64,000 bases of DNA, taken from contig CM075101.1 in assembly GCA_037576195.1 (NCBI GenBank), positions 5,022,001 through 5,086,000 on the forward strand. Reading direction: 5' to 3'. Positions 59,101 to 61,518 of the stretch are shown piece after piece. Numbering within the stretch: position 1 is the stretch's first letter; each line of letters opens with the position of its first letter. This stretch comes from Phytoseiulus persimilis. Taxonomy: Eukaryota > Arthropoda > Arachnida > Mesostigmata > Phytoseiidae. A program made the translations under genes and the position numbers. A model generated the notes under the pieces. That model made no database searches and was not told the DNA's origin. It saw only the letters and a program-made list of their open reading frames with translations.

Positions 59101-61518
59101 GGATGGAGGTCAAGCCTCCGTAGCATCTAGTTGAGGAATATCAGTTTCCTCCATTTTGATTCTTCCGATGTTTCCGGAGCTGTGAAATAAGAACAACTTG
59201 GGCGTCAGATCGTTCGGGATATACTTATTCGTGTCGGGACGACATATCTGGAATATGAAAAAAATTCTGGGTGGGTCTTTCACTCTGTCATGAACGAATC
59301 GAGGATCATGTCATACCTTGATGAGCCTTCGAGCGGAATCCAAGAACGGAGAGTTTGCTGAACTCGGGCTCGGGACACATCTTCGGTCACGCTCCACTGC
59401 TCAGCCCTGGGAAATCGCACGATGAAACCGATAGTCCCAGCTGGACCTGCTGTAGCAACAAGGAATCGTGTTTCAACAATGTAACAAGCTTCATTCCTTC
59501 CAGAAAATCGATCGGTCGACGACTGGAGTGGAGAACCATATCCAGAACAAATGCGGTTCCCCTGCGCTGGTAATGAACACGCGTTCGGGAACATCATGGA
59601 GCCGAAGCGCCAGAGGACTGCTTATACAAGACACCAAATACTAGAACTAGAAAAAGAGTTCCACTTTAATAGGTTGGTAGAATCGAGCGTGTTCCGATCT
59701 CCGATGGGTTGGAAACCTATTTTGGATATCATTAAATGGAATATGCGTTGCTTGCAGATATCTAACGAGACGACGCAGGATCGAGATTGCTCATAGTCTG
59801 TGTCTGACCGAGCGACAGATCAAGATCTGGTTCCAAAACAGAAGGTGAGGTCAGCTCTTCGCTTTGGGAAGATTCGTGAATCCGTACCCATTCTCCAATA
59901 TTCTGAGCTCGGGAGCGATATTGAGCACATATCAGTTGGAGAGTGGGGATTTCATTTCTTCGAGTAAACTCGGATTCCAGGAGGACATTTCGAACGGAGA
60001 ACTGTATCTCAACATCGCATGATTCATTTGCAGGATGAAATGGAAGAAGGACAATAAACTACCGAATACTAAAAATGTCAAAAAGAAGCAACAGAATCAA
60101 CAAAGCCAGCAGCAATCTCAACCTCGACCCGTAAGCACTGCCGTCGCGTTGCTCCGTTGCCCCTCCTAGAACTCTCGAGCTCCTGCCGAGAAACCGATCT
60201 CCATATAACTTCACTAAGCGTCGAAAATCCCTCGCGCATAATTCATCGTATCCATGGCTCCCATCTCTTCCAGGGACAGACAGTAACTGGGCCTTCGGCT
60301 GGAGGAGCGGGCGCCCCCGTGTTGGGGGAAACAGCTTCGCACAACATCGCAGCTACTCCACCGTTAGCCGCTCTCGGAGCGCAGCCTTATCTGTATCCGT
60401 CATACAATCCAGCGACGGGACCGGGTCAGCATTTAGCACAAGCGCCTCCGCAGCTGCCGCAGCCGCCCCGCACCAGTGAGTACTCAGCCGATCCCCAACT
60501 AGTGGACTCTTGTGCGCGTTGATCGATCGGACGAGCGGCAAGTTGTACGCCACCACGAGGCACGACAACTGACCGGCGCAGTGGCTTCAAAGAGGTGACG
60601 TGCTCGCGAAGGAGGGCAAACAGGCGTTCGAACAGGCAAGCAGCTAACCCGGCGACGGGGTTCGCTCGCAGCCAAACGGTCGGACGGACGTTTTTTCGAA
60701 GTGAATGACGGACGGATGGATGCAGGAACGACGTGCTGGCTCTCAGACCGGACTGCAAGCAAGTACGCGAACCTTCCATCTGCAATCCGACCGACGCGCA
60801 GCCTACAAGCCAGCCAGTGAGCCTTTCAACCCTCTCACAGATCCACTGTTGGAGCCGTCTGAGCCAGTCGCCGACAGGGGCAATGCTAGACTACTGAGGG
60901 AGAGCTCAGTAAGTTTAAAACTACTGTCAGCGCAATTACACTAACCCCTGAGTGCTTATTCATCTTGATTCATAACACTCGAGCAAGAGAACTACTGCTC
61001 TTCGACCGATCGTAGAGTCTCTCGGGAATCGAATACCAAATGCACGGAGTCGATACCACGTCACCTCCTGAGGGCACCGCCCGCAATATATTCTCGTTCC
61101 GATCGATGAAGATTTTTCCAAGCCCCTGTGCGTTTTCTATGAGTCTCTCATGGATGTTGTGAACGATCTCCTCAATAGAGAAGTGGAGAAAAGGTTCTCA
61201 CCCCTCAAATTTCTGTCCCGCCTCTTCCACAGTTTGGGGGGATTTGTTAGTCGCGGGCAGAAACAATCGGTGCGACACATCGTACAGACCTCGCTGATGC
61301 TCCCTACCGTGGTGATTCGTGGTGGTGGTGCAGTACCGTCCTCTAAAACAGCTCCCCATGCCATGGATCGAGCTTCAAATATCTCATGTTTTCCCTCTCT
61401 TGCAGGCAGTGCGTTGATAACGTCTTCATCCTCCGAGGAACCAATAGTCCAGACATGCATGATTTCAGAACCCACGTCGTCTCATCTGAAGAAAGAATAC
61501 GGATTCACTCAATTGTAA
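46970..61518 (+). CDS. Dfd: Deformed, Hox4-class homeodomain transcription factor
   Basis: Nuclear Hox selector protein, expected to specify gnathal (in mites, anterior leg-bearing) segment identity. Coding exons: 46970-47174, 55956-56165, 59504-59672, 59758-59844, 60034-60130, 60274-60475, 61406-61518; phases agree, 360 residues. Order: Tyr/Pro-rich N-terminus, hexapeptide Y-P-W-M-K-K at the end of exon 2, linker of about 40 residues, homeodomain in exons 3-5, Gln-rich stretch, Pro/Ala-rich C-terminus. [12 protein letters not shown] at the homeodomain start and [11 protein letters not shown] at its end are Dfd-diagnostic. Recognition residues I47, Q50, N51 and M54 are present. ATG 46970 is the first after an in-frame TGA at 46952. 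Unusual points are the two introns inside the homeobox and an 8.8-kb first intron. Extra small exons in intron 1 cannot be excluded. Shorter than insect Dfd. Confidence 0.92.
50073..50105. repeat. GGT/CGT trinucleotide repeat in Dfd intron 1
   Basis: GGTGGTGGCGGTGGT passing into CGTCGTCGT and CGCCGCC. It is preceded by a T-run and an A-run at 50027-50048. Confidence 0.75.
50201..50443. repeat. (GGCA)n and (CGTA/CCTA/CCAC)n arrays
   Basis: AGGCAGGCAGGCAGGCA at about 50201-50217, then ACGTACATACGTACCTACC-type units at about 50409-50443. All are in 4-bp phase. Confidence 0.65.
51341..51392. repeat. (CAGC/CAGT)n array in Dfd intron 1
   Basis: Alternating CAGC and CAGT units with a preserved 4-bp phase. 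Confidence 0.7.
53897..54055. promoter_or_regulatory. Paired inverted CCAAT module inside Dfd intron 1
   Basis: ATTGGCCAGCG at 53897-53907 and its exact reverse complement CGCTGGCCAAT at 54045-54055 bracket a CpG-rich segment. That segment includes CGCATGCGC (53996-54004), an NRF1-like site. A (CTCA)n array follows at 54069-54151. The layout resembles the module before exon 1 and could be an internal promoter. This is inference. Confidence 0.35.
54069..54151. repeat. Tetranucleotide arrays (GCTC)n and (TCAC)n
   Basis: TTGCTTGCTCGCTC, then CAGTCAGTCACTCACTCACTCAC, in 4-bp phase. Confidence 0.75.
55956..56165 (+). CDS. Dfd: Dfd exon 2, Pro/Ser-rich region and hexapeptide
   Basis: Starts after TTTTGCAG in phase 1, completing a GCA codon. 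It encodes a Ser/Pro/Thr-rich stretch ending [18 protein letters not shown] is the PBC-cofactor (Exd) contact motif of Hox4-type proteins. The donor CAAG|GTGAGT is strong, phase 1. Confidence 0.92.
56543..56605 (+). other. tRNA-like fragment (box A/box B), possible SINE head
   Basis: TGGTCTATGGC (56543-56553) resembles an A box. GGTTCAATCCC (56578-56588) is a good B box inside a CCGG/CCGG T-arm. The boxes are only about 34 nt apart, shorter than in a functional tRNA, and no clean acceptor or anticodon stem forms. It may be a tRNA pseudogene or a decayed tRNA-derived SINE. Confidence 0.25.
58100..58272. repeat. CA-rich then (TA)n microsatellite in Dfd intron 2
   Basis: CACACATACACTCACACACGCGCACGCACACA at about 58098-58129, ending in a long TATATA tract at about 58245-58272. 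Confidence 0.8.
58317..58502. repeat. Tetranucleotide arrays (GCAA)n, (CAGC)n, (GGTC/GGCG)n
   Basis: A series of imperfect 4-bp arrays. A further (GGCT/GGAT)n stretch lies at about 58675-58735. It shares character with the array before Dfd exon 1. Confidence 0.7.
59504..59672 (+). CDS. Dfd: Dfd exon 3, linker and homeodomain residues 1-24
   Basis: The acceptor CATTCCTTCCAG at 59492-59503 has a good pyrimidine tract and joins exon 2 in phase 1 with no stop. An in-phase alternative acceptor ends at 59545. It encodes the linker and the homeodomain N-arm and helix 1 ([12 protein letters not shown], then [10 protein letters not shown]). It ends inside codon R24 at a weak donor, GTTGGT. Confidence 0.9.
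59758..59844 (+). CDS. Dfd: Dfd exon 4, homeodomain residues 24-53
   Basis: An 87-nt exon between TTGCTTGCAG and GTGAGG. It encodes [12 protein letters not shown] and I-K-I-W-F-Q-N-R, i.e. helix 2 and most of recognition helix 3. Both ends are phase 2. Confidence 0.95.
60034..60130 (+). CDS. Dfd: Dfd exon 5, homeodomain end and Gln-rich tail
   Basis: Starts inside codon R53, then [18 protein letters not shown] and a Gln-rich run. K-L-P-N-T-K directly after the homeodomain is a Hox4/Dfd hallmark. Donor CCC|GTAAGC, phase 0. Confidence 0.95.
60274..60475 (+). CDS. Dfd: Dfd exon 6, Ala/Pro/Gln-rich region
   Basis: Acceptor CATCTCTTCCAG. It encodes a low-complexity Gly/Ala/Pro stretch with [12 protein letters not shown] strong GTGAGT donor at 60476 leaves phase 1 and joins exon 7. 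If that donor is not used, translation would end 16 codons on, at the TGA 60520-60522, giving an alternative short C-terminus. Confidence 0.8.
61406..61518 (+). CDS. Dfd: Dfd exon 7, C-terminus
   Basis: The acceptor CTCTCTTGCAG joins exon 6 in phase. It encodes a Ser-rich stretch ending K-K-E-Y-G-F-T-Q-L before TAA at 61516-61518. That ending resembles the short conserved C-terminal motif I associate with arthropod Dfd proteins, which supports this exon over the read-through alternative. Confidence 0.75.

Follow-up and report, generated by a model that had tools for sequence, protein, structure and literature searches.

Two introns at non-standard positions in the Deformed homeobox of Phytoseiulus persimilis and the recurrence of these positions in other homeobox genes of the same genome

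Introduction

The Deformed (Dfd) gene of the phytoseiid mite Phytoseiulus persimilis, a gene of head patterning, raises the question of how a homeobox comes to be cut twice, within codons 24 and 53, and whether such introns are inherited or new. Hox genes generally have one intron and an undivided homeobox, located in the second exon, as stated in a review of deuterostomes, which names split homeoboxes for some posterior Hox genes and for dipteran Abd-B (PMC3707753). The average number of introns per Hox gene is 0.9 in Ixodes and 2.0 in Tetranychus (PMC4862073). Unusual homeobox introns are not new as such, since over 20 positions are known from bilaterian homeodomains, for which homoplasy is feared (PMC1779571). 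Introns at codons 24 or 53 were not named in titles or abstract openings among the literature matches listed.

The window, i.e., the whole stretch of 64,000 nucleotides analyzed here, is C1:5022001-5086000 of a genome of 181 Mb in 127 contigs. Contigs C1 to C4 (54.7, 52.0, 38.9 and 28.1 Mb) are taken to be of chromosome scale.

Structure and identity of the Dfd gene

The features of the gene are as follows (positions in the window; a slash marks an exon-intron boundary):

55956..56165, + strand: predicted Dfd exon with the hexapeptide IYPWMKK (56123-56143), read by eye; YPWM match
56166..59503, + strand: predicted intron between hexapeptide exon and homeobox, phase 1, read by eye
59504..59672, + strand: exon with linker, homeodomain residues 1-23 and two bases of R24; spliced fit, start by eye
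59673..59757, + strand: intron in R24, 85 bp, phase 2, AG/GTTGGT...TTGCAG/A; spliced fit
59758..59844, + strand: exon from the end of R24 to two bases of R53 (helix 2, most of helix 3)
59845..60033, + strand: intron in R53, 189 bp, phase 2, AAG/GTGAGG...TTTGCAG/G; spliced fit
60034..60130, + strand: exon with the end of R53, homeodomain residues 54-60 (to 60055) and downstream residues; end by eye
60131..60273, + strand: post-homeobox intron, phase 0, CCC/GTAAGC...CTTCCAG/GGA, by eye; frame agrees on both sides
60274..60476, + strand: predicted C-terminal Dfd exon, by eye; end uncertain

The hexapeptide exon ends at a phase 1 donor, AAG/GTGAGT, at 56166; its start is less certain (acceptor TTTTGCAG ending at 55955). 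For the C-terminal exon, the end may lie at a donor GTGAGT near 60477, or the frame may read through to a stop ending at 60522.

The homeodomain starts with P1 at 59602-59604. The codon of R24 is divided into AG (59671-59672) and A (59758), and that of R53 into AG (59843-59844) and G (60034). Both introns are GT-AG and restore the reading frame exactly, as expected of major-class spliceosomal introns. The donor of the first, GTTGGT, is weak compared with the usual consensus, and that of the second, GTGAGG, is good. A spliced profile fit that was blind to their positions recovered both introns exactly, in phase 2, over 57 of 57 columns; 30 homeodomains that are unsplit in this genome served to build the profile, and the result was re-checked on the window sequence. 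The middle exon corresponds to the genome homeodomain match C1:5081753-5081845. The positions and lengths given for both introns in the sequence-only reading were thus recovered, and so was its contrast with the best-known homeobox site: an intron at 44/45 or 46/47 precedes codon 45 or 47 in phase 0, whereas both Dfd introns split a codon.

Retention of the first intron leads to a stop 64 residues past the homeodomain start, with the loss of helices 2 and 3, and retention of the second places a TGA directly after R53. A working protein therefore needs both to be removed, as either one leaves a truncated homeodomain. In silico removal gives an uninterrupted homeodomain followed by KLPNTKNV.

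The joined product of 132 residues matches the Pfam homeodomain family PF00046 with 84.4 bits over positions 1-57 of 57, and its best relatives among solved structures are the Scr and Antp homeodomains. The homeobox follows the hexapeptide exon after 3.3 kb, and the phase 1 end of that exon fits the acceptor at 59503. A Hox homeodomain with YPWM upstream and LPNTKNV downstream, the latter of which we take to be a mark of Dfd/Hox4, identifies the gene as Deformed (Hox4) on sequence grounds. By these features, the two interruptions are real spliceosomal introns, as read from the DNA, in a real Dfd gene and at non-standard positions.

A 142-codon open frame at 55599-56024 on the + strand lies upstream of the hexapeptide exon and overlaps it in another frame, with no Pfam family above the cut-off. 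For the two open frames over 55599-56179, no Pfam family exceeded the cut-off either (best E 0.041). The search of the window (1-64000) against Rfam gave zero matches at the gathering threshold, and mir-10 and mir-993, which are placed near Dfd in other arthropods (PMC4862073), were not recognized.

Homeobox introns across the genome

A family search of the genome gave 95 homeodomain matches in 87 clusters. The intron survey took in 93 of them, i.e., all but C2:27633789 and C2:13846687, and the by-hand search for further introns covered the loci other than the TALE-/SIX-like L018, L019, L024, L079 and L081. The family search misses short exons: neither the 5' exon of ftz nor the 3' exon of Scr is included in the 95. 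Gene names are putative assignments from the homeodomain letters. Among the resolvable loci, 19 genes have a homeobox intron other than phase 0 at 44/45 or 46/47:

Codon 24, phase 2: Dfd, ftz (L085/L010), NK1-like (L011), engrailed (L012), Six4-like (L013, with a proline codon there)
Codon 53, phase 2: Dfd, BarH-like L034 and L040, NK2.1-like L048, another NK-like gene, L009
50/51, phase 0: Scr (L052/L086) and ftz
Codon 10, phase 2: abd-A (L017)
18/19, phase 0: Hox3 (L015)
Codon 31, phase 2: three PRD genes (L016, L022, L023), L022 by its donor alone
Codon 19, phase 2, single gene: L014
12/13, phase 0, single gene: L020
Codon 37, phase 2, single gene: L027 (PRD)
Codon 39, phase 1, single gene: L021 (LIM)

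Since both Dfd positions recur in other homeobox genes, they are not special to Dfd. The earlier description of two novel positions in one homeobox thus stands as far as it places the introns away from 44/45, and falls short of their extent, as neither position is confined to this gene.

Two loci call for comment. In the NK-like gene L009 (C1:66500-71500), a second gap at 2440-2545, near codons 22-24, offers no clean splice that would keep the usual length; it is perhaps a three-residue insertion or a sign of a decayed gene, and was left out of the codon 24 cases. The engrailed homeobox (L012, C1:46518003-46519054) is split at codon 24 in phase 2 and not at 17/18, the site of the homeobox intron in insect engrailed. 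Here, an old intron was perhaps lost and a new one gained.

Among the Hox genes, five of ten carry atypical homeobox introns, seven in total (two each in Dfd and ftz, one each in Scr, abd-A and Hox3). The 44/45 intron is present in lab and Abd-B, and the homeoboxes of Antp, Ubx and pb lack introns. The codon 24 intron of ftz measures 3691 bp (donor AG/GTAAGG, acceptor GCAG/A) and the 50/51 intron of Scr 5632 bp. The 3' exon of Scr, at C1:2229061, was located by a weak match (E 0.06), and its acceptor and frame fit. In insect pb, 44/45 is the classic homeobox intron site; the unbroken homeobox of pb here (L006, C2:51467810) likely reflects intron loss.

The Hox genes L006, L010, L015, L017, L025, L028, L037, L039, L052 and L066 are spread over C1, C2 and C4, and the closest pairs are about 1 Mb apart. 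The Hox cluster is therefore dispersed, with its genes far apart on three large contigs. A Hox cluster is described for Neoseiulus cucumeris, and Hox genes on separate scaffolds for Metaseiulus (PMC6902594). A Scr gene is present in this genome (L052 with L086, C1:2223282-2229105), whereas Ixodes, Metaseiulus and N. cucumeris reportedly have no Scr (PMC6902594). An intron of 5.6 kb at 50/51 may hide the end of Scr from gene finders.

Sharing of intron positions and chance

Whether the sharing of positions exceeds chance was assessed by counting coincident pairs, with the introns at 44/45 and 46/47 excluded and the BarH pair and the PRD trio at codon 31 each counted once. After this collapsing, 18 introns at 10 positions gave 17 coincident pairs. 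Uniform placement gave a mean of 0.9 pairs, and none of 20,000 trials reached 17. Placement was also weighted by the frequency of the sequence AG/R at each boundary in genes without an intron there, taken from 70 homeodomain sequences, a few of them with wrong ends (L052, L009, L056). The mean then rose to 3.5 pairs (p 0.0006 and 0.00015 in two runs). When the NK-like genes at codon 53 were counted once, p was 0.0025 under this weighting.

Stricter counts gave weaker values. The Hox genes alone hold 2 pairs (p 0.07 with AG/R weighting, 0.04 with pseudocounts, 0.005 with uniform placement). One intron per class and position leaves 4 pairs against a mean of 1.8, with p 0.12 under AG/R weighting, 0.07 with pseudocounts and 0.003 under uniform placement. 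The excess of sharing beyond the AG/R weighting is therefore fragile. AG/R targeting can account for the sharing if the introns of one class depend on each other, and not easily if they are independent. As significance against AG/R targeting is lost once introns are collapsed by class, independent repeated gain is suggested but not proven.

The individual sites differ in how well they fit such targeting. Among homeodomains that lack the respective intron, AG/R occurs in 16 of 57 at codon 53 phase 2, in 24 of 60 at 50/51 and in 3 of 65 at codon 24 phase 2, so that target frequency explains the codon 24 cluster poorly. After splicing, the flank of the Dfd R53 site is AAG/G, which fits MAG/R, that of R24 is TAG/A, which fits AG/R only, and that of the Six4-like codon 24 site is CCC/A. 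Flanks that match proto-splice sites may postdate the insertion.

Origin of the Dfd introns

The Dfd introns were probably gained in this lineage. The explanation that we favor, and consider likely, is that they are gains within a turnover that affected homeoboxes throughout the genome, in which AG/R favored insertion or fixation and paralogues were hit independently. Dfd would be a functional gene with two ordinary introns of the major spliceosome, whose predicted removal is needed for a DNA-binding protein. The turnover would extend to five of ten Hox genes as well as NK-like, engrailed, PRD, LIM and SIX genes with atypical introns, and its sites would cluster at few codons, mainly 24, 53 and 50/51. 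Where a conserved codon offers AG/R, insertion or fixation would be favored, leaving many introns at such proto-splice sites, and paralogues with the same conserved codons could be hit at the same place independently. We infer from the sequence that the Dfd introns are spliced in vivo and that proto-splice targeting would cause the recurrence. The stronger claim, that homeobox introns were gained repeatedly at a few fixed codons, foremost codon 24 in phase 2 (Hox, engrailed, NK-like, SIX), is possible but doubtful. If it were true, there would be a real insertion hot spot, or a transfer of introns between paralogues, exceeding what AG/R predicts.

Alternatively, the introns at codons 24 and 53 may be old, of chelicerate or even earlier animal origin, and lost in the well-studied insects, so that sharing among paralogues reflects ancestry. 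Genome-scale models usually read shared positions in this way and assign about 8% of them to parallel gain (PMC2151770), and in another model the probability that one position gains introns in parallel more than three times is near zero (PMC1323467); both figures concern orthologues across species. The 17 coincident pairs against the AG/R mean of 3.5, with all 18 introns taken as independent, also speak for ancestry, and the codon 53 intron of the NK-like genes could come from one ancestor. Introns at codons 37 (PRD) and 39 (LIM, Isl) are also listed in a ctenophore (PMC2959044), and hence not all atypical introns need be new. However, great age would demand that the ancestor of both SIX and ANTP genes had a codon 24 intron and that this intron was lost almost everywhere. 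The homeodomain introns of Nematostella are described as confined to the HNF, PRD and TALE classes (PMC1779571), the Hox genes of Ixodes are intron-poor (PMC4862073), and Antp, Ubx and pb have no homeobox intron in the present genome. An old origin is thus considered unlikely.

Introns may also have been copied among paralogous homeoboxes, by gene conversion or by reverse splicing at the homologous site. Dfd and ftz agree in the position and phase of the codon 24 intron, Scr and ftz agree in those of the 50/51 intron, and the flanking residues are nearly identical in these genes. Against copying, the 105 pairs among 15 introns at the main positions showed no convincing similarity, the best reaching 2.9 standard deviations over shuffles; for Scr, this set contained a wrong stretch in place of the true intron, and ftz was not represented by its codon 24 intron. 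Each Dfd intron matched only itself in the whole genome, in a search that skips very common words. Old transfers could have lost all similarity. On balance, copying appears quite improbable.

An origin from a mobile introner family would be compatible with the finding that several of the introns clustered at these few positions are short (75-189 bp), and an old, diverged family could have escaped a search of this kind. No second copy of either Dfd intron was detected, and hence no introner was seen. Direct repeats flanking the two introns did not exceed shuffles, at least 90% of which reached the 4-base matches found. Among 27 introns tested for flanking repeats, a clear excess occurred in three (L020 at 44/45, L058 and L068); these lie at 44/45 or 46/47, and their excess is the splice consensus itself. 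We regard an introner origin as very improbable. Misassembly or misread exon edges, which the weak first donor and the prediction of exon edges from sequence might suggest, can hardly explain the exact frame and phase, the complete profile fit and the recurrence of the same positions elsewhere, in a gene within a contig of 54.7 Mb.

Comparison with known systems

The proposed lineage gain, with independent hits on paralogues, can be set beside several known cases. The 44/45 intron of lab, pb, Abd-B and many ANTP genes is likewise spliceosomal and inside the Hox homeobox, but it is widespread and lies between codons in phase 0; those of Dfd interrupt codons 24 and 53 in phase 2. The second intron of amphioxus Hox12 is also at a non-standard homeobox site and is read by the authors as secondarily acquired; it is one intron in one posterior gene, in contrast to two in an anterior gene whose positions recur in other families (PMC3707753). 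In Daphnia pulex, 43 of 90 new introns were ascribed to parallel gain, likewise near the same site and in one lineage (PMC4202315). These gains are young, at the population level and in alleles of one gene, whereas the present case concerns paralogues within one genome.

The mite Metaseiulus occidentalis reportedly has a marked intron turnover, described by Hoy et al. in 2016. Its introns are described as undergoing high gain and loss (PMC7738191) and its Hox genes as dispersed (PMC4862073), a dispersal also seen in P. persimilis. In the available text of both accounts, introns inside Hox homeoboxes are not mentioned.

Conclusions

The noteworthy part of this case is the recurrence of intron positions across the homeobox family of one genome rather than Dfd alone. 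Dozens of paralogous homeodomains can be aligned gap-free at most codons, and the unusual homeobox introns of one genome therefore provide a clean test of how intron sites are chosen. The alternatives, i.e., proto-splice sequence, insertion hot spot and copying between paralogues, are testable in this setting. Shared homeobox intron positions should be taken with caution as marks of ancestry in lineages with fast intron turnover.
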